From: an uncultured Flavobacteriales bacterium
GTDB taxonomy: Bacteria; Bacteroidota; Bacteroidia; Flavobacteriales_D; Parvicellaceae
NCBI GenBank assembly: GCA_905480225.1
Contig: CAJQPO010000038.1
Span: 1 to 47,767, forward strand
Reading direction: 5' to 3'
Length of the DNA stretch: 47,767 nucleotides
Shown piece after piece: positions 20,708-38,178 of this stretch (its first letter is position 1; every line of letters starts with the position of its first letter). The translations under genes and the position numbers were made by a program. The notes under the pieces were generated by a model, which searched no databases, was not told where the DNA came from, and was given only the letters and a program-made list of their open reading frames with translations.

Positions 20708-20792
20708 TTTCTTGATATTCAAGAATAAATTTTTCGAGAATTCAATAACGCCAAATCTTACATCAAGTAATAATTCTGAATACTCAAACTCC

Positions 20793-22100
20793 ATGCGGAA
20801 ATTGGCTTGTGTGTTGGTCTTTACTGTTGGTGCATTAAGTTGCAATTCTCAGTATGCTTTAGTCATAAATAACGACGCGTTCGTGGTTATAGATGGAGGT
20901 GTTTCTGCCACGCCAGTTTATTTGGTTATCGATGAGTCTGATGGACTTGGAATCACAACTTCTGGCACAGGGGGTAACATTATTTCTGAAGGGGAATTCA
21001 ATAAAGTGCAATGGAATATTGGCACAAATGTAGATTCCTATACCATTCCATTCACATCCAACAACGGTTCAAGCGATCAAAAAATACCGCTTTCCATTGA
21101 AACGACTGGCTCTGCAATAGGTGGAAATGGAAGACTTCGATTGTCCACATGGGAAACAGCAGATGGCAATTTATCAGGAACGTGGCCCACAGACGTAACT
21201 CATTTAAACACAGCTGCCTCAGGATCATCTAATGGTTTAAATGTAGTAGACCGGTTTTGGATTGTAGATGCCGATAATTACACCACTAAACCAAGTGCAT
21301 TGCTGGGTTTTACGTATAATGACAACAACGAAATAGCTGGGTCTAATCTGATCAACGCAGGTAATGAATCAACACTTGTTGGTCAAAGTTTTGATGCGGC
21401 TACTAATACATGGCGTGGAAACACTTCCGGAACAGCGGTATATTATGGTTCTTGGACAGGTGCACGAACAGTAAGTGGCGCAAGCGTTTCGGATGGGGAT
21501 TTTTTTGCTTCTTGGACCTTGTCCTTGAATTCTTTACTGCTTCCTATAGATTTAATCGATTTTACTGTCGATTGCATCAATAAGCAGAAAGTGATTAAAT
21601 GGAGCACCAAATCAGAAATAAATAACGACCAATTTATTATTCAAATGAGTCCTGATGGAATAGAGTTCGAAAATATTGCGGTGATTATGGGAGCTGGAAA
21701 CTCGAGTTTTCAGAATGATTATGAATATGTTGATTTATCTGAGTATGAGAACATAACCTATTACCGACTCCTTCAAGTTGATTTTGATGGTTCTGAATCA
21801 TACTCAAATATCGCTGCGGCTGATCCTTGCGACGGCAACTTAAGCTCCCTTACTATAAACACTTCAAACAACAATGTAATTGACATTTCGTATGACGCGC
21901 TAAACGCATCAAAATACCAAGTCCAAATCATTGATGCACGAGGAAGATTGCTTGTCGAACCCACCGTGTTTCAGTCGCAGAAAGGAATCAATAAACATAC
22001 TATTCCAATTCATCATATTGATTTTGGAATTTATTATATCATAATTCAAAATGAAACAGAAAGAAATTTCAAAAAAATTGTACTCTATGAAAATCATTGA
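20793..22100 (+). CDS. T9SS type A cargo protein, function unknown
   Basis: The 435-residue protein starts at the ATG of a signal peptide (MRKLACVLVFTVGAL); an upstream TTG start would place 27 polar residues before it. The N-terminal 240 residues are Gly/Ser/Thr/Asn-rich and beta-like with no domain I can name. A fibronectin-like module follows (KVIKWSTKSEINNDQFIIQ ... YRLLQVDFDGSESYS). The last 75 residues are a typical T9SS type A sorting domain (VQIIDARGRLL ... GIYYIIIQ ... KIVLYENH), which PorU-like sortases remove or modify after export. The protein is thus expected at the cell surface or outside. The gene leads a three-gene run with the next two genes. Confidence 0.85.
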   Translation: MRKLACVLVFTVGALSCNSQYALVINNDAFVVIDGGVSATPVYLVIDESDGLGITTSGTGGNIISEGEFNKVQWNIGTNVDSYTIPFTSNNGSSDQKIPLSIETTGSAIGGNGRLRLSTWETADGNLSGTWPTDVTHLNTAASGSSNGLNVVDRFWIVDADNYTTKPSALLGFTYNDNNEIAGSNLINAGNESTLVGQSFDAATNTWRGNTSGTAVYYGSWTGARTVSGASVSDGDFFASWTLSLNSLLLPIDLIDFTVDCINKQKVIKWSTKSEINNDQFIIQMSPDGIEFENIAVIMGAGNSSFQNDYEYVDLSEYENITYYRLLQVDFDGSESYSNIAAADPCDGNLSSLTINTSNNNVIDISYDALNASKYQVQIIDARGRLLVEPTVFQSQKGINKHTIPIHHIDFGIYYIIIQNETERNFKKIVLYENH

Positions 22101-26171: not shown

Positions 26172-27350
26172 TTACGTGCTGACAGCATGCGACTTTGTTC
26201 GTCTAAACCAATAATAGTACCTCAACCCTATTGTTAAAATTATAGGTCTGGCTGCCGAATTTAATTCTTGAGGTAAAAAATACCAGAACAATACAAATAG
26301 AAAATAAAATATAGATAAGGCAAGAAATAGTTTCCCAAAACGATTTCTCCATTTTTTGAAAGCCAAGAACACGGGTATAATAAAATGGATGGGGTTGGCC
26401 CAAAGAACATTGTAATTTTCATCGGTTGTTGTATGTTCAGTTCCAAACCAAAGAAATAAAATCACAATTCCACCTAAACCTAAGATTGTAAAAAATATCC
26501 CATCAAAAAGTTTTGCGACCAAATCCCATTTTAAAAAGAGAATCCCCGCACCAATAAACAATATTATCCAAAACAAAAATGAAACCGTTTGTGTTAAACT
26601 CGGATTTTCTCTTTTAAAAGGAAAGTCTAATATCACCCTATCGGATGTTACTAAAGATCGATTGCCAATTACGGATTTAGACATGATTTCTTCCATTTTC
26701 AATGGTAAAAACATCAACTCAGAATTAGAGACCAAATGATCTGTTTTTGCACCTAAGCTAAAATCAATTCCAAAATCTGACCAAGGTTGGACATAAAGAT
26801 TTTCATCAATTAATGATCTAAAACTTACGCTCCCAGCCTGAGAATGCTGATACCACTTAACACTGTCAGCAATAACGTTTGCTATTCTATCTCTGATTAT
26901 AGTCGCACAATTGTTAAAAAAAAAGTCATACCTGTACGCCCGGTTTTTTGGCAAATTATTCTCTTGTATCGATTCCCAAAGTAATTTTTTCTGAGGAATG
27001 GATAAGGCCAGTTCTAATTCTCGAACAGCCCTTTCTTCAACTTGATACAAATAAATAAAATCAGAAAACGATTGGATTTCTAATAGGTAATCCATTTTAC
27101 CTTTTGCAAAAGAAATGGCAAACTCCAATTGACTATCTCCGGGATCAAATACACCCCAATTGCAGACCATGTCCAAGTTGGTTCTCTGGTCCTGCACGCG
27201 CAAAGCACTGTGGCCATGAAGTGCGTACACTTCTGCACCTGGGTCACATGTTAAAATGCTAAATTTCGCTTGTGGACTTAGTGGTTGCGAAATAGATAAA
27301 ATTGGTAGGATAATCCAACATCCCAATAAGAAGAATCTGAGCTTTAACAT
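26172..27350 (-). CDS. DUF4105 membrane protein, candidate lipoprotein N-acyltransferase (Lnb-like)
   Basis: The 392-residue protein has a signal peptide or anchor (about 1-22), a DUF4105 domain facing the periplasm (about 25-230) and four or so membrane segments at the C-terminus (about 255-385). Conserved-looking catalytic elements are LHGHSALRV (His45, His47) and FFNNCATIIRDR (Cys148). This His-before-Cys order resembles permuted papain-like (NlpC/LRAT-type) hydrolases and acyltransferases. From memory, a DUF4105 protein of Bacteroides has been reported as the lipoprotein N-acyltransferase Lnb; whether this protein does the same is inference. It follows the sortase gene by 7 bases. Confidence 0.8.
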   Translation of the reverse strand: MLKLRFFLLGCWIILPILSISQPLSPQAKFSILTCDPGAEVYALHGHSALRVQDQRTNLDMVCNWGVFDPGDSQLEFAISFAKGKMDYLLEIQSFSDFIYLYQVEERAVRELELALSIPQKKLLWESIQENNLPKNRAYRYDFFFNNCATIIRDRIANVIADSVKWYQHSQAGSVSFRSLIDENLYVQPWSDFGIDFSLGAKTDHLVSNSELMFLPLKMEEIMSKSVIGNRSLVTSDRVILDFPFKRENPSLTQTVSFLFWIILFIGAGILFLKWDLVAKLFDGIFFTILGLGGIVILFLWFGTEHTTTDENYNVLWANPIHFIIPVFLAFKKWRNRFGKLFLALSIFYFLFVLFWYFLPQELNSAARPIILTIGLRYYYWFRRTKSHAVST

Positions 27351-27357
27351 GTTTCAA

Positions 27358-30300
27358 TTAGTAGCTTAACAAGTACATTTTACCAAACTCTTTATTGATG
27401 TATTCATCTGCCCCTGATTCTCTGCGATCTATATTTTCCCCATTGATTTTAGTCGTAACGGTATAAAAATATACTCCAGCGGCTAATCGATCACCAAACT
27501 GGTCTCTTCCGTCCCAATAGTAATCCGTAATGTTTCTACCTATTCGCAAGTCACCTAACTCTGCCCGGGTAATTTCCCTTACAATTCTACCGGATGCAGT
27601 AAGGATTTGAATTTTAAAATAATCTGGGATGACACTACCTGTAAGCGTAAAGACAAATTGTGTCCTTGTAGTAAATGGATTTGGATAATTCATTACGTTC
27701 GTTATTGTCGAAGCATTGACTACCTCAAATTCTATTTCATATTCTATATCTCCAGAAGAATTTTGAGATTTATCCTTCGCTTGAACCAATAATTTATAGA
27801 TTCCATCAACTGGGAATTCTGGCTCATATTCAATTGTGCACTTGTTCTCATCTCCCGTTGCTGGAATAAAACGAAGTAATTCTTCACCATTCCCATCTCT
27901 AAAACGGATTGATTTAAACGTTGTACCGCCTGGCTCCCTGAGAAAAAGTTGCAGGTTCGAAGTATCCTCTTGACTGTCAAAGAGAAAGAACATGTTCTCA
28001 TCATCCACAGTTATCGTAACAAATGGTTTAGCACTTACAATGTCTCTATTTAAAATATGTAATCCATCAAATGTCACGTCTAAAATGGGATTGATCTTAT
28101 CCGTTTCTGCATGAAAATCAATGAAAGCAACATTATTAAAATAAAACTGCTCGCGCTGATCCTGATTGAGGTCATCAATATAGGGGTTTGCCTCTACCCA
28201 CAACCGATTGTCATTGGGTAAATTCTGAGTGGAAATCGTTATCGTATCCAAAATAACCCCTCCTGCTCTCAAGGAGTCCTGACGTGCATACGGAATGTAT
28301 TGTCTTTGATTGTTGTAGTCCTGAACCGAATAGTGTACTAATAAACTATCAAAATCAAACTCACTAACGTTTTCAATTGCGATTGCAAATTCAGCAGAAT
28401 CTCCATGTGCAATGCTATCATTAATTGAAAAATAAAACCCTTTCTTCTGATTAATTGCAAGTTCTGGCGCAGGATCATACAACACTTGCCACCTATTCGT
28501 TTGAGCTGGCGTTTGACTAACACCATCAAAATAAAACCCTTCAATTTTCGCAAATGGATATTCCGAAGCATCTAGAATTGCATCTAAATTAACAACAGAA
28601 TCAACCTGTGAAAAAATGGTGTCGAGAATCAAATCAGTCACTCCCGAATGCTTAACCCCATATAATTTGATTCTCGTACTATCTGTATTCGGAAGTTCAT
28701 AAGGCATTTGTGCCCAATAAAGCGTATTCCACTTTAACGCAGGACCTACTAATGTAGATCGCATAAGGCCTGATTGAGCAAAGTCAAGTGAATCTTGAAG
28801 CTGAATCGGTTCATGGATACCTAAAGAGTCTGGCTGTGAAAACACTTCAGAAGCAGAAGTTGGATCTCCTTTTCTACAAAACAATATGAAAGATTCGTTT
28901 ACCCGTGATGTCGAAAAGCTATTAAACCCTAGGCTTACTAGTTTACCATATAAACCAGGAGCATGGGCATCCCAATTGGAGTATTCTGCTTTCCATATGG
29001 TGTAAATTAATATGTAATGTCCGTTTGGCACAGTGTCAATCATACTTTCAATGGAGGACATTTGTGAAACGTCTGATTGTCTAAACTCAAAGAAATAATC
29101 CGGTCGGTCTCTAGACGTGAAATTCACATTTCTTTGTCCATAATCTCTTTCCCAATTTAAAGTATCTCCCGTTGACAGAACTTTAGGCGTTCCCCAAGCT
29201 TCCAAAGTAATTGGATCCATAACACACACATGAATATTAGGATAAGAACTGTTGCTATATGTGTGGTAATCTATTCTATCGGTTCCAATAAAATAATTAC
29301 AATATTTACGCTCAGAATTAGTCATATTACTAATTGTATTACACGTAAGTATTAACGAAGATTGTCCCAGTTCAAACGCTCTTGCAGGTTTATTGTACTG
29401 AATATTTAAAAATTCTCCATTTTTAAATTGATGAAAATGTGCTTGTCCCCAGCCAATTTTTCCGTTTATGTACTGAAACGATCTTTCCTTCCAGATTGGC
29501 ACTGTAGAGTCTGCACTTGCGCGCCAAAAGTAAACCGTACTATCCGTAAAACTTAAGGTGTCTGAAACACCTGTAGCGCTATTTCTCCATAAATCTGGAT
29601 CAAGTTCTACAATACCACCTTCCGAAGAAATTAATTGATTTTTTAAAAATGGTGAAGTGAAAGCATCATTGGTATCAAGTTCAAACCTGTATGCCCTGTT
29701 TGGGGCAAACGGATCCACTGTTGAGGCTTTTAAAGTCATTTTTTTATTCGGTACAATTGCATAGTCGTACGGATATACAGGCTCAATCCCATCCAGTTGA
29801 ATATATGTAGAATAAACTATTTTATTATTGAAAAAGTCATCGTGTTGCTCCGCATATTCTGATGGTAGGTCAACCTCAATGTTAAACAGGTTAATTCCTT
29901 CAGCAATCGTAGGTTGCAAAGGTATTGACAGCACTACGGTATCTCTATATGCTCCCTGAGGTAAATCATAAAAGTAAATTGAATCTACCCCATTTGGAAA
30001 AGTTCTTACTACCTCTATTCCGATAGTATCTCTTATCGCTTGGCCCAAATTGGTTACGACAATATTTAAATCGAATGAATCGGTTGCAACCGTAATTTCG
30101 GACGGACTAATGAATATCCTGGACTGGTCGAGAACCAATTCCGGCGCTTTATGAGCATTTATTGAAATAGCTGGGTCTCCTTGAATTGAGAAATTACCAA
30201 CACTTCCAGACTCTGAGACGTGAGAAGTACTGCTCAAAGATGATTTTGCATACTGAGCTACTTTACCAATTGACTCTCCGTATAGCGTATCGCAAAACCC

Positions 30301-32568
30301 ATTGTAAAATTCACTTGTAAAACTGTTTAATCCATTGGTGAAACCAATTTTCACCGTAGACAAAAATGCAATTGCTCCTTGATCTGGGAGAATAACAAAT
30401 TTTTCACTCGCACTAGTGGTCGAGGGTTGATGGACGTCTCCGGCGAAACAACCCAACCCTATGACTATTGGGAATTTGCCATAGTTACCCCAATTGTCCG
30501 GATTATCAATATTTTGATCAAACCCTTCTGTACTAGCGTGGCCAAAAAACGTAATCAAAGAAACCCCGTCTTGAAGATTCTGATTTACTTCATCAAAAAT
30601 AACTGGAGTAATTGGGTCCGAGGACACCTTTAAGTAGGTATCAACATCACCTCCAAATTTGCCAACATTTTCAAAAACGTATTCGTAATTCCCTAAGTAA
30701 TTTTTAAGTAATAATTGCTCAGACTCTGTAGAACCTCCACCAAAATGCATCGCTTTTTTCTGCCATTCTTTTTCCTCAATACCATAAAAAGAGGATGAAT
30801 CTTGCATTTGTTCGAATGCTTGAACCTTATTTAAATAATCCGCAACATCTTGTGGCAATTTGGCCGAAAGTCTTCCTGTCGGTATTGCAGGTTCCAATGT
30901 CGCATCTGTATTCGATTTTGAAAAATAATCATCTGAACTAGGGTAACCAATAGATGGAACTAGACATTTGGAATACTCACTGCCCGTTCCCTGTACAATC
31001 CCATAAGTAACGCTTGCAGCAACAGACGCATTTCCTTCAGAGGCTTCCATGACGGACTTTCCAAGAAGAAATAAATTTGCGGGTTTCGTCGGCCAATTGT
31101 CAATGGCATAATAACAAAACCGCCTAATTCCAAGGCCACTTTTCACTACACCTCCACCAAATTGTCTATACAATTCGTCTACGTCAATAACCAAGGTATC
31201 GTGACCGCCACCATCATTGGTTGAACGATAACTACCATAAGCAATTGCCTCGGGGTATAGACTCCGATGCGTTATGATGAGGTAGGCATCTCCCAAGTTT
31301 GCAGAAGCAATGTCACGAAATCTCCCGTTGCGCATGACCGGAGTAATTTTAACCGTTGAAGACGAATTACTGTAATCTGTTACTTCTTTAATTTGAGAAT
31401 CATCAAACATGATTGCATGTTGCAATGATGCCGTTGCATTATTAGGAGCTAAAACGTTGGTAGTTCCTCCCCCAATCACCAATGCCAGTTGCTTGATCGT
31501 ATCTCCACTGAAAAGCCATAGATTTGGATTACTCCCATTAAAATTTGTTATTGACATCAGTGATTTTGAAGCTGTAAAAGAAGGTTCAATATCCATTTCA
31601 AACCAGCTGGCATTTTCGAAATTAAATGTATGAGGATAGGTTAAACGAACCTCACCAACCGTTTGATAATCCGATATTTGACCTAAATCTTCTGACTTGT
31701 GTTTAATCGATGTAGTGGATGCAGGTAAAGAACCATTTGGAATACTAAAAAGCGAACGGATAACTTTATAGCCACTATAAACCGTGTCTTTCGCGGTAAT
31801 CGCTGTGCCCGAACCATCAGTGTACGTAACAACCAACTTGTGATTAAACCCAACCAAACTGCTTGAATTGCTTGCACCACCAGAAACTGCTTCTACATAA
31901 GCTGCAGGTGCGGATGAACTATAAAAAGCATTTGCGGTGCTCAATGAAGCACTATGAGATCCTCCCATTCCAAATCGGAATGAAGACCAACCTTCAGCCG
32001 ATTCGTACCTTGACCTGGACAAACCCTCATATTGTTCTCCTACAAAGTATTCTTGACTGTAGGAAACTTCGTTCGTTCGCCAGCAAAAATCAGCGGCTGT
32101 ATAGCTTGAAAAATCAACATCTGTTTCTCCTTTGATTCTTCGATTTGTTGTTGAATTATTCCAGGATAAAAAATATCTAATCGTGTCACTTGTAAACGAC
32201 TTGTTCCGATTCATAATCAGAGAAGGGTCATCAAATAAAGAACTGTCTAACCAGGTATCATTCTTTTGTGCGTAGAACAAGATGTAATCTGTAGTGTTAA
32301 ACGAGCCATCCGACTCCCCTTCAACATGAATATATAATTCCTGATCTCTTCCAAAAAGCTGCAGATTTCTAGGGTCGATAGTAGATAAATTATCACCCGT
32401 TTCGGCAAGCACATTTGAAAGTGTCGTGTAATCAATGCGGTAAATACCCGACTCTATTATGGGTATTTCATAATACTTCTGACTGTAATCAATCCATTCA
32501 TTACCGTATTGCGCACAATATAAAAGTGGCGAAAAAAATAACAGCACGGCAATTAAAGGTTTCATCAT
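27358..32568 (-). CDS. Type IX secretion sortase, PorU family (probably PorU2)
   Basis: PorU is the cysteine protease of the T9SS that removes C-terminal sorting domains of cargo at the cell surface and can link them to lipopolysaccharide. This 1736-residue protein has a signal peptide (to about residue 19), a PorU-like N-terminal beta region (EIPIIESGIYRIDYTTLS, DYILFYA), and a gingipain-like C25 domain. The catalytic His677 is in FFGHASTEG and Cys707 in IGLGCFAGD. Long CARDB/Ig-like modules follow, and the C-terminus is FlgD-like (MNYPNPF, about 1622-1628; DYYWDGRDQFGDRLAAGVYFY). It is longer than canonical PorU (about 1150-1300). I read it as the less studied PorU2 type, supported by the adjacent PorV/PorQ-family gene 2 bases upstream. 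Confidence 0.85.
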   Translation of the reverse strand: MMKPLIAVLLFFSPLLYCAQYGNEWIDYSQKYYEIPIIESGIYRIDYTTLSNVLAETGDNLSTIDPRNLQLFGRDQELYIHVEGESDGSFNTTDYILFYAQKNDTWLDSSLFDDPSLIMNRNKSFTSDTIRYFLSWNNSTTNRRIKGETDVDFSSYTAADFCWRTNEVSYSQEYFVGEQYEGLSRSRYESAEGWSSFRFGMGGSHSASLSTANAFYSSSAPAAYVEAVSGGASNSSSLVGFNHKLVVTYTDGSGTAITAKDTVYSGYKVIRSLFSIPNGSLPASTTSIKHKSEDLGQISDYQTVGEVRLTYPHTFNFENASWFEMDIEPSFTASKSLMSITNFNGSNPNLWLFSGDTIKQLALVIGGGTTNVLAPNNATASLQHAIMFDDSQIKEVTDYSNSSSTVKITPVMRNGRFRDIASANLGDAYLIITHRSLYPEAIAYGSYRSTNDGGGHDTLVIDVDELYRQFGGGVVKSGLGIRRFCYYAIDNWPTKPANLFLLGKSVMEASEGNASVAASVTYGIVQGTGSEYSKCLVPSIGYPSSDDYFSKSNTDATLEPAIPTGRLSAKLPQDVADYLNKVQAFEQMQDSSSFYGIEEKEWQKKAMHFGGGSTESEQLLLKNYLGNYEYVFENVGKFGGDVDTYLKVSSDPITPVIFDEVNQNLQDGVSLITFFGHASTEGFDQNIDNPDNWGNYGKFPIVIGLGCFAGDVHQPSTTSASEKFVILPDQGAIAFLSTVKIGFTNGLNSFTSEFYNGFCDTLYGESIGKVAQYAKSSLSSTSHVSESGSVGNFSIQGDPAISINAHKAPELVLDQSRIFISPSEITVATDSFDLNIVVTNLGQAIRDTIGIEVVRTFPNGVDSIYFYDLPQGAYRDTVVLSIPLQPTIAEGINLFNIEVDLPSEYAEQHDDFFNNKIVYSTYIQLDGIEPVYPYDYAIVPNKKMTLKASTVDPFAPNRAYRFELDTNDAFTSPFLKNQLISSEGGIVELDPDLWRNSATGVSDTLSFTDSTVYFWRASADSTVPIWKERSFQYINGKIGWGQAHFHQFKNGEFLNIQYNKPARAFELGQSSLILTCNTISNMTNSERKYCNYFIGTDRIDYHTYSNSSYPNIHVCVMDPITLEAWGTPKVLSTGDTLNWERDYGQRNVNFTSRDRPDYFFEFRQSDVSQMSSIESMIDTVPNGHYILIYTIWKAEYSNWDAHAPGLYGKLVSLGFNSFSTSRVNESFILFCRKGDPTSASEVFSQPDSLGIHEPIQLQDSLDFAQSGLMRSTLVGPALKWNTLYWAQMPYELPNTDSTRIKLYGVKHSGVTDLILDTIFSQVDSVVNLDAILDASEYPFAKIEGFYFDGVSQTPAQTNRWQVLYDPAPELAINQKKGFYFSINDSIAHGDSAEFAIAIENVSEFDFDSLLVHYSVQDYNNQRQYIPYARQDSLRAGGVILDTITISTQNLPNDNRLWVEANPYIDDLNQDQREQFYFNNVAFIDFHAETDKINPILDVTFDGLHILNRDIVSAKPFVTITVDDENMFFLFDSQEDTSNLQLFLREPGGTTFKSIRFRDGNGEELLRFIPATGDENKCTIEYEPEFPVDGIYKLLVQAKDKSQNSSGDIEYEIEFEVVNASTITNVMNYPNPFTTRTQFVFTLTGSVIPDYFKIQILTASGRIVREITRAELGDLRIGRNITDYYWDGRDQFGDRLAAGVYFYTVTTKINGENIDRRESGADEYINKEFGKMYLLSY

Positions 32569-32570
32569 GG

Positions 32571-33665
32571 TTAGCTCGGATCAGGTTTTACCAGGGCAAA
32601 TTTTAGTGAGAAAATGTTTGAATAAAGAGCTACCGAAGCATCTCCTAAATCTGTCAAGGCATAATCCAACGCTATTCTTTTAATTTTCACACCGATCCCT
32701 ATATTGGGCTGAACAGTAAGCACTTCTTGTCCTCCTACATCCATTTCGTATTGAAGATAACCTATCCCTCCCCTTAAGAATACCAAATTATTGTACCCCA
32801 ACTCTATTCCTGCATGAGGATCAATACTTGCAAAGCCTGTTCTTATTAGAGTATTTCGTTTACCGTCGAACGTAATGTCAAAGTCTAATTCTGGTAAAAT
32901 AGAAAATTTCTCTTTTACAATTATTTTACGTGCAACACCTAGAAGTAACCTAGGTAATGTTAGCTCTATCGAGTTTTGAGGGATTGCGTTACCCGTTAAG
33001 GTGAACGTTTCAATCATTTGATCACTTAATGAATATGACCAGGCATTAAAAGTCGTGGTTACATCTCGAAACGTTGCTCCCAGTATCCACTCATTTTTCA
33101 CATACCTGGCGCCCAAATCAATTCCAAAACCCCATGATCGTCCGAAAGTGCCTACTTTTCTATGCACGATCTTAACATTTGCTCCAAAATCAATGTTTTT
33201 AATTCTGCGAGCATAAGAAACAATGAATCCATAATCTGCTGCTGAAAATGTACTTATCTTATCATAATCTATATTGCCCTGAGCATCAATTAGCTCAGTT
33301 GTATTGGGAATATCATCTACTCCAAACCTGATCATAGAGATTCCAAAAGCACTGGTTGAGTCTATTTTTTTGGCAAAAGCACCGTAATCATATTTAGCCA
33401 ATCCAGCAAAATACTCTGCATGCATCAAACCAACGTGTATATCGTCGTTTAATGACAATAATCCTGCTGGATTCCAATATCCTGCGGTAATATCTGTAGT
33501 AGTAGCAACAACACTGTTAGACATCCCCAAACTTCGCGCACCAACACCAATTTGTAGAAATTCATTGGAATACTTTGGCGCCAAATCCGCACCGTTCTCA
33601 TTTTGAGCAAAAAAACTGTAGGAAGTAAGTAGTAATGCTAAAGTTAATGTGGTTAAATTTTTCAT
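32571..33665 (-). CDS. PorV/PorQ family outer-membrane barrel
   Basis: The 364-residue protein has a signal peptide ending SYSFFAQ, followed by FLQIGVGARSLGMSNSVVAT and the TAGYWNPAGL motif typical of the PorV/PorQ (FadL-like) 14-strand barrels of the T9SS. PorV shuttles cargo from the translocon to the PorU attachment complex; PorQ works with PorZ. The long strands alternate hydrophobic and polar residues to the end. Because it is coupled to a PorU2-like gene with only 2 bases between, I think it is that sortase's dedicated barrel rather than the main PorV. It is the first gene of a five-gene minus-strand run and is divergent from pssA. Confidence 0.85.
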   Translation of the reverse strand: MKNLTTLTLALLLTSYSFFAQNENGADLAPKYSNEFLQIGVGARSLGMSNSVVATTTDITAGYWNPAGLLSLNDDIHVGLMHAEYFAGLAKYDYGAFAKKIDSTSAFGISMIRFGVDDIPNTTELIDAQGNIDYDKISTFSAADYGFIVSYARRIKNIDFGANVKIVHRKVGTFGRSWGFGIDLGARYVKNEWILGATFRDVTTTFNAWSYSLSDQMIETFTLTGNAIPQNSIELTLPRLLLGVARKIIVKEKFSILPELDFDITFDGKRNTLIRTGFASIDPHAGIELGYNNLVFLRGGIGYLQYEMDVGGQEVLTVQPNIGIGVKIKRIALDYALTDLGDASVALYSNIFSLKFALVKPDPS

Positions 33666-35709: not shown

Positions 35710-38178
35710 TTAAAAATCTACTTGAAACTTACATCGAAGCCCAAATTTATAAACTTGAATTCCATCAAAAGAGTTGTCTCTATAGGACAATCTCCATATA
35801 GCGTCTATACGGAATACCTGAAAAATATTCTCTATTCCTAAAGAAACTTCCGAGTAGGGTTTTTTACTTAATGAAGAAGTGAAATAAGGAAGAATCATTT
35901 CCCTTCTATGCTTAGCACTCAATCTCCCGTAAATCGCTTTACAAGTAGCAACCTCTCGCCATTTCAATTTTCTAATGATCGGGATTTTATTAAATAATAG
36001 TCCGTCAAAATGATGTTCAAAAGAAGCGCTGATGTATTCATCGCTAACAAATTCTGAAATATTCATCATATTATAAGCTAATTTGTTATAAGTCCAGGTT
36101 TCATTACCCAAATGGATTTCTAACAAAGGGTAAGGCACTGCGCCCCAAATTTTACCTACTTCAAATCGATATTTAAAATTTCCTAAAATTCCCAATGGCA
36201 CTTTATGCTTCCAACCAATAATTGCCTTTTGGTATTCATAATCACTACCGAGTACCCCTTTGAATCCATAGGTAAACTGCGCAGTAATGATTGGTTTTTT
36301 TGTTCCTAAACTAACCCGATCAAAGTTATTCGACAGAAATTGTTCTTTGTGCGCCCACCTGGTTCTAAACACAACTTCTGAAGTTGTAATCGAATTGCCA
36401 TCATCCAGAAATGGGTTTCCAATGAATTGAAAAGTAGGAATAATACCCAGTGGTCCAAATTGCGATCTTCTAAACATAATTGTACTTGAAAAACCATCAA
36501 ACCACTCTCGCAAATAGCTGCAACGGAACTCATCTATATTAGACAGTTTGTTCATCGGATTCCTTCTTAAAAAAGAGGACAAAACATTGTCTGTTCGAAA
36601 TGCATTCTGACTTAAACCCAGCTGCTCTATATCACTCTTGTAAACTAATTGAATCAACCGTCTTGGTTCTTTGGTGATAAAAAGACGCGTACCCGCTCCA
36701 TATTTCCATTTTTTATCTAGCAAGCCAAAAGCTCCGTAACCTGATAATTCCAACTTTTCATTGAACTGACTATTTGTTTTTAGTCCAAGGCTAAACCTAT
36801 TGCCTTCCACTGCATTGTAGCTGTATACAGAGGAATATGGACCTATTGAAATTGGACCAACTGTTTTCCACCCGCTGATCAACATCGATATTACATCAAT
36901 ATAAGTTCTTACTATCGGGACATTTCCCAATGTATCCATCATCTCGAAAATTCCTTGCTGATTCGCACTCAAGGTATCATGTCGATTGTCTAACCAAAAT
37001 TTATCCGATTTATCCATGGCGTCATTAAGAACAACAATATTATCTGCGCCACTATAAAACTCCTCTGACTTCTTCTCATTGATTACGAAATTATCATAAG
37101 ACGTAAATTTTCTTCCGTAAAAACCCATTTCGCCATCAATTATATTAAAATCAATCCAAAGCTCGTCCATAGTTAACATCCACACCTCTTTCTCTACTTG
37201 GCTAAATTCTTGAGAAACCTTAAATTCTTTAATGAAATTAATGTTGGCATCTGCCGCTATGGTCCCTTCAACTCGGCGAATCGCATAAGTCGTGTCGTGA
37301 ACAAACAAGTCTCCAAAAAATGTCAGTTCTCCCTTCCTTTTAGGCATAAATTTTAAATGATAGCACCAATACCCATCCACTTCAACAGAATCCAACAAAT
37401 AATATTTGTAATAAGAAAATCCATTATTAGCTACTGGACTAACAAAGTTTTTTCCAAAAACAGGTACATGATTGTCATATATGTTCACTTGTTGATACAT
37501 GTCTCCTGTGAATTGAGAAACGCTTTCATTATTAACGCCTGAAACTCTGTTCGCTTTGATGATTTCTTTGTTTTTCTTTGGATCACGTTGAAAATAATAA
37601 TCAGATAAAGATTCCGTCATGAAAACAGGCAGATACGGTTTTCTTTCAGTCGTATCAATATTGTCAAAAATGAAATCAAACTTTTTAAACCATCTTTTTT
37701 GTGTAAAGTTGGAATCGATATTGTTCAAGTCTAATTCAATCTTATTATAAACTTCATATTGATAAGCATCTAACTTTTCACGATTATTAATTTTTTTATT
37801 TGAAATTACTTGCCGCATAATAGAATGGGCTGGATTTTCACGTTCAACAGGAACAACCGTTATGGTAGGTAGCCCCTCCACAGATTCTTTCAAAATCACA
37901 TCAATCCTTTGCGATTCATCTTTTTTAACTTTAAAATACTGTGTAACAAAAGTTGGATACGACACTTCAAGTGTATCACTAGCGTAATACGTTTCCATGG
38001 AGTAATTCCCTTCCATGTCTGCTGTCGCACCGATCTTCGTCCCTTTGAACTTTATGATAACCCCCGGCAATGGCTCACCAAATGTATCATCTGTCACAAC
38101 TCCAAACACTTTGGTTTTTTGAGCAGTCGAGACCGCTGAATAAGATAATAATAACAGTATGATTAGCCTTAAACGCAT
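35710..38178 (-). CDS. DUF5686 outer-membrane protein with CarboxypepD_reg-like domain
   Basis: The 822-residue protein has a signal peptide ending SAVSTAQ, then an N-terminal carboxypeptidase-regulatory-like beta domain (about 22-105; GEPLPGVIIKFKGTKIGATAD ends this fold's core). A DUF5686 region (from about 110; AHSIMRQVISNKKINNREKL) then runs into a long outer-membrane-barrel C-terminus that ends in Phe (KFQVDF). It resembles SusC-like proteins in layout but lacks a plug or TonB box. Its function is unknown; DUF5686 proteins are common in Bacteroidota. It follows tatC by 21 bases. Confidence 0.88.
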   Translation of the reverse strand: MRLRLIILLLLSYSAVSTAQKTKVFGVVTDDTFGEPLPGVIIKFKGTKIGATADMEGNYSMETYYASDTLEVSYPTFVTQYFKVKKDESQRIDVILKESVEGLPTITVVPVERENPAHSIMRQVISNKKINNREKLDAYQYEVYNKIELDLNNIDSNFTQKRWFKKFDFIFDNIDTTERKPYLPVFMTESLSDYYFQRDPKKNKEIIKANRVSGVNNESVSQFTGDMYQQVNIYDNHVPVFGKNFVSPVANNGFSYYKYYLLDSVEVDGYWCYHLKFMPKRKGELTFFGDLFVHDTTYAIRRVEGTIAADANINFIKEFKVSQEFSQVEKEVWMLTMDELWIDFNIIDGEMGFYGRKFTSYDNFVINEKKSEEFYSGADNIVVLNDAMDKSDKFWLDNRHDTLSANQQGIFEMMDTLGNVPIVRTYIDVISMLISGWKTVGPISIGPYSSVYSYNAVEGNRFSLGLKTNSQFNEKLELSGYGAFGLLDKKWKYGAGTRLFITKEPRRLIQLVYKSDIEQLGLSQNAFRTDNVLSSFLRRNPMNKLSNIDEFRCSYLREWFDGFSSTIMFRRSQFGPLGIIPTFQFIGNPFLDDGNSITTSEVVFRTRWAHKEQFLSNNFDRVSLGTKKPIITAQFTYGFKGVLGSDYEYQKAIIGWKHKVPLGILGNFKYRFEVGKIWGAVPYPLLEIHLGNETWTYNKLAYNMMNISEFVSDEYISASFEHHFDGLLFNKIPIIRKLKWREVATCKAIYGRLSAKHRREMILPYFTSSLSKKPYSEVSLGIENIFQVFRIDAIWRLSYRDNSFDGIQVYKFGLRCKFQVDF

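Follow-up and report, generated by a model that had tools for sequence, protein, structure and literature searches.

PorV2-PorU2, a paired barrel and sortase-type protease that may act without the SprA translocon

The stretch of DNA analyzed here (the window; 47,767 nt from an uncultured Flavobacteriales bacterium) carries two adjacent genes for a sortase-type cysteine protease, PorU2, and an outer-membrane barrel, PorV2, resembling the PorU and PorV proteins of the type IX secretion system (T9SS). A preliminary description read the pair as a parallel attachment complex serving clients of its own. The question raised by the locus is whether this is so, or whether the two proteins have some other task.

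The PorU2 and PorV2 proteins

The PorU2 gene (27358..32568, minus strand) encodes a C25 cysteine protease of 1736 aa. The NCBIfam model NF052324, named “putative type IX secretion system sortase PorU2,” gives it 670.8 bits for a cut-off of 450; with the PorU model NF033707 it reaches 213 bits, about half the cut-off of 420, which places it outside canonical PorU. The beginning of the protein, judged by eye, is signal-peptide-like. Pfam PF01364 (C25) matches residues 429-802 (30163..31284, minus strand; 1.5e-55), and alignment puts the histidine of a FFGHAS motif at residue 677 and the cysteine of a GLGCFAG motif at residue 707, bearing out the catalytic dyad proposed earlier; both residues are kept in all 23 aligned PorU2 rows. 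The middle region (residues 803-1600; 27769..30162, minus strand) is predicted by AlphaFold2 and Foldseek to consist largely of Ig-like beta-sandwich domains. The model of residues 803-1736 has a moderate mean pLDDT of 75, and retrieves generic multi-Ig proteins along with PorU (6za2), with low TM-scores throughout.

Residues 1626-1736 (27361..27693, minus strand) form a type-A-like T9SS CTD, assigned from conservation, profile comparison, and TIGR04183. A profile including this region (A2) matches the CTD of PorU 6za2 at 4e-6, as expected of a T9SS-type CTD; against TIGR04183 the window CTD by itself reaches 21.6 bits, narrowly under the cut-off of 23. We propose that this domain binds PorV2 and is not cleaved off.

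The PorV2 gene (32571..33665, minus strand; 364 aa) ends 2 bases (32569-32570) before the PorU2 ATG, as originally described, and both ORFs are confirmed. The protein is a PorV/PorQ-family, FadL-like barrel of 14 strands, and the proposed dock for PorU2. The model NF052325, “putative type IX sorting system protein PorV2,” gives it 495.8 bits for a cut-off of 325, and NF033709 gives 112.6 (cut-off 90); with the PorV model NF033710 it reaches 53.1 bits, below the cut-off of 250. In a fold search with its AlphaFold2 model (pLDDT 81.4), the PorV chains 8gl6_F and 6h3i_F rank first and second, above FadL and BamG, with TM-scores of 0.63-0.65 for PorV and 0.40-0.47 for BamG chains. PorV is also the sole match at E ≤ 1 in a PDB search with the PorV2 profile. 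Taken together, the extracellular loops of PorV2 are at least as conserved as its strands and far more so than its periplasmic turns, in SprA-positive and Niabella groups alike, although this does not hold for every loop: L1, L2, L4, and L7 are the conserved ones, L5 is less conserved than the strands, and L6 stands at 0.43 in the SprA-positive relatives.

The structural comparisons bear on one alternative, in which the pair would be a variant of BamG-BamH, the accessory proteins of the Bacteroidota BAM complex. According to portions of two papers (PMC12578637, PMC12611786), a FadL-family barrel there holds an extracellular partner outside the T9SS; the architecture is similar, and a BAM role would be T9SS-independent. 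However, PorV2 has no sequence match to BamG and a lower similarity to its fold than to that of PorV, and the same portions describe BamH as a lipoprotein scaffold, while PorU2 has a C25 protease domain and a CTD. They also report BamG as essential, yet two Niabella genomes (see below) show no PorV2. On the PDB profile and fold searches this identification was rejected, and we regard it as highly improbable.

A second barrel complex offers a parallel to the proposed docking: PorZ is a CTD protein carried on the PorQ barrel, as outlined in part of a review (PMC10202324), much as PorU2 would sit on PorV2. Membership is another matter, since the end of the PorZ profile matches the PorU2 CTD at just 28 bits (PorZ cut-off 260), and PorV2 has 67.9 bits against PorQ (cut-off 220).

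Both proteins are thus already named in NCBIfam, as “putative” PorU2 and PorV2. The name “PorU2” is absent from the literature searched, which fits the earlier remark that its role is largely unexplored. The name “PorV2” occurs in four papers, one of which, PMC10994853, does not contain “PorU.”

Relation to canonical PorU and PorV

Canonical porU and porV genes are present elsewhere in the same genome, adjacent to each other on another contig (G000:C44). In a PorU/PorU2 tree of 39 rows, selected from the fetched sequences rather than comprising all of them, PorU2 branches apart from PorU with an SH-aLRT of 100. The opposite outcome, a genome with no other porU and a sortase clustering with PorU, was looked for and not found; the tree and the separate canonical genes support the view that this is a distinct second type of PorU, paired with a PorV-family barrel of its own.

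The two pairs (PorU-PorV being represented by NF033707 and NF033710) have in common the C25 Cys/His dyad, a type-A-like CTD, a FadL-like partner of the PorV family, and gene adjacency. In PorU the CTD remains unprocessed and is held on PorV (PMC10202324, in part). The activity that defines a PorU-type sortase is the removal of CTDs and the fixing of cargo to LPS at the cell surface. PorU2 differs in its low score with the PorU model, its separate branch, its retention after loss of SprA (see below), and its size: as anticipated in the preliminary description, it is longer than canonical PorU, by 440 aa relative to the PorU frame of its own genome (1296 aa).

That genome has SprA, PorV, PorU, and GldM, and 104 CTD hits. 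PorU2 or PorU2-like proteins were found in 18 genomes, 17 of which have SprA over cut-off and 8-148 CTD hits each. This co-occurrence, the homology to PorV-PorU, and the shared gene pairing are what would be expected of a parallel T9SS attachment complex, in which PorV2 would shuttle, and PorU2 cleave or anchor, CTD cargo that is specific to the pair and leaves via SprA. There is also a precedent: distinct PorP/SprF barrels serve distinct type-B cargo in Flavobacterium johnsoniae, according to part of PMC12618676. Against it, CTD numbers show no trend with PorU2, being 12-86 in five PorU-only genomes and 18-148 in ten having both proteins; no client gene adjoins the pair in annotated loci; and Niabella, where SprA is not over cut-off and further CTD proteins are few, keeps the pair. 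As a complex with its own T9SS clients, the earlier proposal is not upheld by the Niabella data, and we consider it unlikely.

As another possibility, PorU2 might be an additional sortase acting on the type-A cargo that PorU handles, redundant beside PorU and substituting for it where PorU has been lost. The conserved dyad agrees with this, as do seven genomes without PorU over cut-off; these have 8-96 CTD hits along with SprA and a PorV-scoring barrel, and encode PorU2 (over cut-off in G007, G091, and G126) or PorU2-like proteins (362-425 bits in G195, G309, G344, and G388). Limnovirga soli is an example of a PorU-less species with porU2. The same seven genomes show that PorU2 does not depend on PorU. 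However, G198 combines SprA and a PorV-scoring barrel with 6 CTD hits, and neither PorU nor PorU2 was matched in it, so losing PorU is not in itself enough to call for a replacement. Retention in Niabella would also go unexplained, and a second-sortase role appears quite doubtful.

Persistence of the pair in Niabella

SprA was over cut-off in none of 17 Niabella genomes, as compared with 140 of 147 genomes drawn from the whole family. PorV2 was nonetheless found in 15 of the 17 (13 over cut-off), in each of which a PorU2 CTD adjoins it; neither gene was seen in the remaining two, G540, where CTD hits are absent, and G543, whose sole hit is a stray of 19 bits. Niabella aurantiaca DSM 17617 is one SprA-less strain that carries the pair. 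The TIGR04183 cut-off is reached by 14 of these 15 PorU2 CTDs, six of them only with neighboring pieces in frame. Three other CTD hits in Niabella are over cut-off, of which those in G536 and G539 hold at the protein level and that in G544 does not. In this genus, then, PorV2-PorU2 is not confined to genomes with the SprA translocon.

In G269, the one Niabella genome tested directly for PorU and canonical PorV, no canonical PorU was found: the best E value with NF033707 (4.4e-39) is at the level of a PorU2 cross-hit. The genome has one PorV-family match, with an E value of 2.9e-28; that model gives the PorV2 of G269 an E value of 7.9e-29. The motor protein GldM persists in 10 of the 14 Niabella tested, and in G269 it is accompanied by GldK, GldL, and GldN, all over cut-off. 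G503 keeps the pair without a GldM match, a weak negative since the same search missed GldM in the SprA-positive G195. GldM was rejected as a proxy for the T9SS: it is not fully sensitive, by the G195 result, and not specific, being present in the SprA-less G002.

The Niabella copies might be thought decaying remnants left after T9SS loss and uninformative about function. The pair is unseen in two of the 17 genomes, and PorU2 is split in four of the other 15 (G534, G536, G538, and G541), with PorV2 broken in three of these (G534, G536, and G538). Both genes are intact in the other 11, though, and the split copies come from assemblies that are 72-91% complete; the splits are likely sequencing errors, with decay as the alternative. 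For PorU2, dN/dS is about 0.05 over the whole protein and at most 0.02 in the CTD, values usable for three of 55 Niabella pairs, all from three close genomes (G531, G539, and G542), the others lying beyond the set saturation limit. The CTD is also the most conserved domain of PorU2, both in Niabella (mean identity 0.91, vs. 0.56-0.65 elsewhere in the protein) and in SprA-positive relatives (0.725 vs. 0.42-0.46), as calculated from 11 intact Niabella and 11 SprA-positive Chitinophagaceae copies, excluding G534, G536, G538, and the split L169. Such conservation is not in itself special to PorU2, since the CTD is likewise the most conserved part of PorU (0.74, vs. 0.55 overall, in 30 proteins). 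The substitution pattern disfavors the remnant reading, to which we give hardly any credence.

Possible functions

Because the SprA-less relatives mostly keep the pair, it probably performs a separate function and is probably not a second station for attaching cargo. We suggest, with a probability of roughly 55%, that PorV2-PorU2 is a two-protein outer-membrane unit, a self-standing protease for which SprA is not required and whose substrates need not be T9SS cargo. PorU2, a sortase-type cysteine protease, would retain its own CTD, by which it may dock on the outer face of PorV2 as PorU does on PorV. It would then be located at the cell surface, acting on envelope or surface substrates, possibly including some outside the T9SS. 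In the organism of the window PorU2 probably reaches the surface via SprA, and probably works there beside PorU-PorV and the ordinary T9SS. For Niabella, with GldM kept in most genomes tested, an alternative export route powered by the GldM motor is possible.

Sequence comparison shows that the genes are paired, that the dyad is intact and the CTD and loops conserved, and that in Niabella the two genes are present or absent together and persist without SprA. Given GldM, GldK, GldL, and GldN, a modified T9SS with an unrecognized translocon could serve PorU2 in Niabella. The genus may also be a derived exception, the window organism having SprA, PorV, and PorU. A bolder extension can be put forward tentatively: the T9SS CTD might serve in this lineage as a barrel-docking module without a translocon, with PorV2-PorU2 an independent envelope-maintenance protease in SprA-bearing and SprA-less Bacteroidota, exported by an undescribed route.

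The family names NF052324 and NF052325 presume a role in the T9SS, while the findings in Niabella speak against any need of the pair for the translocon. If it does work without SprA, these T9SS-placing names mislead, CTD counts call for more caution as a sign of a T9SS, and there is a further client pathway to be found for a PorU-like protease. Niabella, lacking SprA and mostly keeping both the pair and GldM, would be a natural system in which to study docking apart from secretion, and the action of the motor in the absence of its translocon.

Neighboring genes

PorV2 is not beside PorU2 in five of the 19 first-fetched loci, including that of the window sequence's nearest relative in the tree. 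Genes of similar size next to PorU2 in G064, G158, and G190 were considered as diverged PorV2 and rejected, as they match NCBIfam models for a glycosyltransferase, an aminotransferase, and a thiolase.

A CTD protein in the window (20712-22100) had been suggested as a possible PorU2 client. Its CTD is an ordinary type-A one (25 bits), the genome has 104 CTD hits, and its sole link to the pair is a proximity of about 5 kb; the suggestion is not retained. Among the annotated neighbors, those of the window and of a few related loci, there is no common client.

Seven bases downstream of PorU2 is a gene for an Lnb-like lipoprotein N-acyltransferase (26172..27350, minus strand), with the Pfam domains Lnb_N and 5TMH_Lnb over cut-off, and 246.6 bits against NF051878 (cut-off 550). 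It is possibly an operon member with the pair; in a blastp comparison with ORFs of the 19 PorU2 loci, no Lnb-like protein was among the matches listed. The other window neighbors are a CDP-alcohol phosphatidyltransferase, a pyridine nucleotide-disulphide oxidoreductase, a ferrochelatase, and an ABC ATPase. The pair is flanked in Niabella G269 by TyrRS, TauE, a nucleotidyltransferase, and an ABC protein, and the PorU2 locus of G045 has TrpRS and an acyltransferase.

A second sortase-like protease with its own barrel

The PorV2 gene (32571-33665, minus strand) encodes 364 aa and scores 495.8 bits against NF052325 (cut-off 325); 2 bases from it lies PorU2 (27358-32568, minus strand), with 1736 aa and 670.8 bits against NF052324 (cut-off 450). 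Both NCBIfam names include "putative." The N-terminus of PorU2 resembles, by eye, a signal peptide; residues 429-802 are a C25 domain, which does have the catalytic dyad His677/Cys707 noted in the preliminary description. The part after C25 is modeled mostly as Ig-like beta-sandwiches (AlphaFold2, pLDDT 75), followed by a T9SS-type C-terminal domain (CTD), and this post-C25 half, used as a profile, matches the CTD of the solved PorU 6za2 (4e-6). The predicted PorV2 structure is a FadL-like barrel, nearest to PorV by fold comparison. A putative Lnb-like lipoprotein N-acyltransferase (26172-27350, minus strand; far below the NCBIfam Lnb cut-off) is encoded 7 bases past PorU2, and a DUF5686 protein, its N-terminal domain carboxypeptidase-regulatory-like, at 35710-38178 (minus strand).

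Canonical counterparts are found elsewhere in the same genome, both on contig C44: a PorU of 1296 aa (NF033707, 1241 bits) and a PorV (NF033710, 450 bits). The SprA translocon gene is on contig C46 (2513.7 bits) and that of the motor protein GldM, above cut-off, on contig C83. In a C25-domain tree of 39 proteins (a quick method, no bootstrap), one branch separates all 11 PorU from all 28 PorU2-type proteins (SH-aLRT 100). Because the genome has a canonical PorU, with which PorU2 does not cluster, the window protein is of a second type; the proposed two-gene unit, PorU2 with its own PorV-family barrel, is real and distinct.

The preliminary description also proposed clients of its own for the pair, as a parallel attachment complex. 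Precedent comes from type-B cargo, where separate PorP/SprF barrels serve separate cargo (accessible text of PMC12618676). Clients in the T9SS sense are unneeded, and in Niabella hard to place; the CTD protein suggested as one (20712-22100) has an ordinary type-A CTD. No client gene was seen beside the pair among the neighbors annotated in the window, in Niabella G269 and in G045, or in the single genes annotated in G064, G158, and G190.

The name PorU2 was not found in the literature searched, though subscription papers or preprints may hold more; PorV2 does occur, in four papers, PMC10994853 among them. In Sphingobacteriia, PorU, PorQ, and PorZ are reported missing (available text of PMC7323717). 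Searches for a second PorU, for PorU/PorV homologs, and for Niabella with T9SS yielded nothing on the pair in the accessible portions of the literature searched.

Conservation and proposed docking

Among 11 intact Niabella PorU2 proteins, mean pairwise identity is 0.61 in the N-terminal part, 0.65 in C25, and 0.56 in the middle, and reaches 0.91 in the CTD; for 11 PorU2 from SprA-positive Chitinophagaceae the values are 0.42, 0.45, 0.42-0.46, and 0.725. The dN/dS ratio is about 0.05 overall and at most 0.02 in the CTD, from the 3 of 55 Niabella pairs that were not saturated (pairs within the trio G531, G539, and G542). The CTD is likewise the most conserved part of 30 control PorU proteins (0.74 vs. 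0.55 overall). The PorU CTD is described as staying on PorV as an anchor (PMC10202324, in the text available).

By predicted topology, pooled extracellular loops of Niabella PorV2 are 0.87 identical, strands 0.81, and periplasmic turns 0.56; in SprA-positive relatives these are 0.65, 0.61, and 0.27. Single loops can depart from this: L5 is under the strands (28 rows), and L6 falls to 0.43 in the SprA-positive set. Such barrels usually vary most in their outer loops; since here the loops match or exceed the strands in conservation, the simplest reading is that PorV2 has a fixed outside partner. The obvious candidate is the CTD of PorU2, which we infer to dock outside the barrel without need for SprA. 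BamG-BamH, a FadL-family barrel with a surface partner outside T9SS, provides a precedent for this architecture (PMC12578637, PMC12611786, in their accessible text). A profile search of the PDB and a fold search argue against a relationship of BamG-BamH to PorV2-PorU2.

The pair without SprA in Niabella

No SprA above cut-off was found by profile search in 17 Niabella genomes; fragments of 17-19 bits matching SprA positions 604-687 occur in seven of them, and likewise in SprA-positive genomes. PorV2 is present in 15 (13 above cut-off), 11 of which have it intact and adjacent to an intact PorU2. The twelfth pair locus fetched (L169, genome G541) has a split PorU2. In G534, G536, and G538, where no locus around PorV2 was fetched, the frames with the PorU2 CTD are short (976, 1232, and 660 aa) and PorV2 is broken too. 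Since all four split PorU2 copies are in assemblies 72-91% complete, sequencing error is the likely cause; decay could also account for them.

A CTD search of Niabella (E up to 0.01) gave 22 rows, 15 of them PorU2's own CTD, beside PorV2 and one per PorV2-positive genome; three of the other seven are above cut-off. At this threshold G540 has no rows and G543 a 19-bit stray only. Twelve SprA-positive Chitinophagaceae tested have 8-121 matches each (E up to 0.001). Of the three non-PorU2 Niabella matches above cut-off, rechecked on protein, those in G536 (44 bits) and G539 (25 bits, a 176-aa frame at L171:3002-3532) hold; that in G544 fails. The G536 protein (L170:589-5940, 1783 aa), whose type-A CTD is clear (44.4 bits), comes from a genus that lacks SprA and may reflect contamination or a recent acquisition.

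In G269, the one Niabella genome of the 17 searched directly for canonical PorU and PorV, PorU was not found: the best NF033707 match (E 4.4e-39) is at the level of a PorU2 cross-hit, and the single PorV-family match (E 2.9e-28) is what its PorV2 scores.

Fourteen Niabella genomes were searched for GldM: ten have it above cut-off, and in G503, G540, G541, and G543 it was not found. In G269 (L157:6896-12061) a GldK-GldL-GldM-GldN run is followed by a PorG-like gene under its cut-off; with SprA above cut-off nowhere in the genus, this is a secretion motor without its translocon. Niabella therefore lacks SprA but not the whole T9SS gene set, and may have an undescribed export route driven by the motor. 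Genome G503 keeps PorV2-PorU2 with GldM unmatched, a silence that carries little weight because GldM also escaped this search in G195, which is SprA-positive. Outside this comparison, genome G002, in which neither SprA nor a PorV-family protein was matched, holds GldL, GldM, and an opposite-strand GldN (L160:7700-11269).

Distribution and other combinations

As a second possibility, PorU2 might be a further sortase for the same type-A cargo, replacing PorU where that has been lost. Seven genomes have SprA, a PorV-scoring barrel (NF033709, 325-432 bits), and 8-96 CTD matches with no PorU above cut-off; G007, G091, and G126 have PorU2 above cut-off, and G195, G309, G344, and G388 have PorU2-like proteins of 362-425 bits. 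The latter, from another family of the phylum (f37, loci L088-L091), are 1683-1822 aa long and score under the cut-off of 450. In these seven genomes PorU2 may act as sortase. Five genomes have PorU without PorU2 (G025, G037, G041, G150, G383), and G198 has SprA, a PorV-scoring barrel, and six CTD matches with neither. CTD counts do not separate the groups, at 12-86 in the five PorU-only genomes vs. 18-148 in ten with both (including G115, whose PorU2 match contains two stops). In these combinations PorU2 has no fixed link to PorU, nor to SprA in the case of Niabella.

In a sample of 395 genomes from the phylum, PorU is above cut-off in 257 and PorU2 in 33; the matches listed also include dozens of frames under the PorU2 cut-off, most of them 1600-2000 aa long. 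In Chitinophagaceae, the family of G269, PorU2 is above cut-off in 101 of 147. PorV2 adjoins PorU2 at 14 of the 19 loci fetched first; at five it is non-adjacent, including in G045, the window's nearest relative. Genome G166 (L079:7532-18133) has two tandem PorU2 genes with nearly identical CTDs behind a single PorV2. Two PorU2 paralogs, in Limnovirga soli (G126, L067:6942-11846) and G091 (L066:7957-12750), lack the proposed docking domain; one carries an ordinary cargo-type CTD (53.7 bits) at its end and the other shows none, as if a sortase had turned into secreted cargo.
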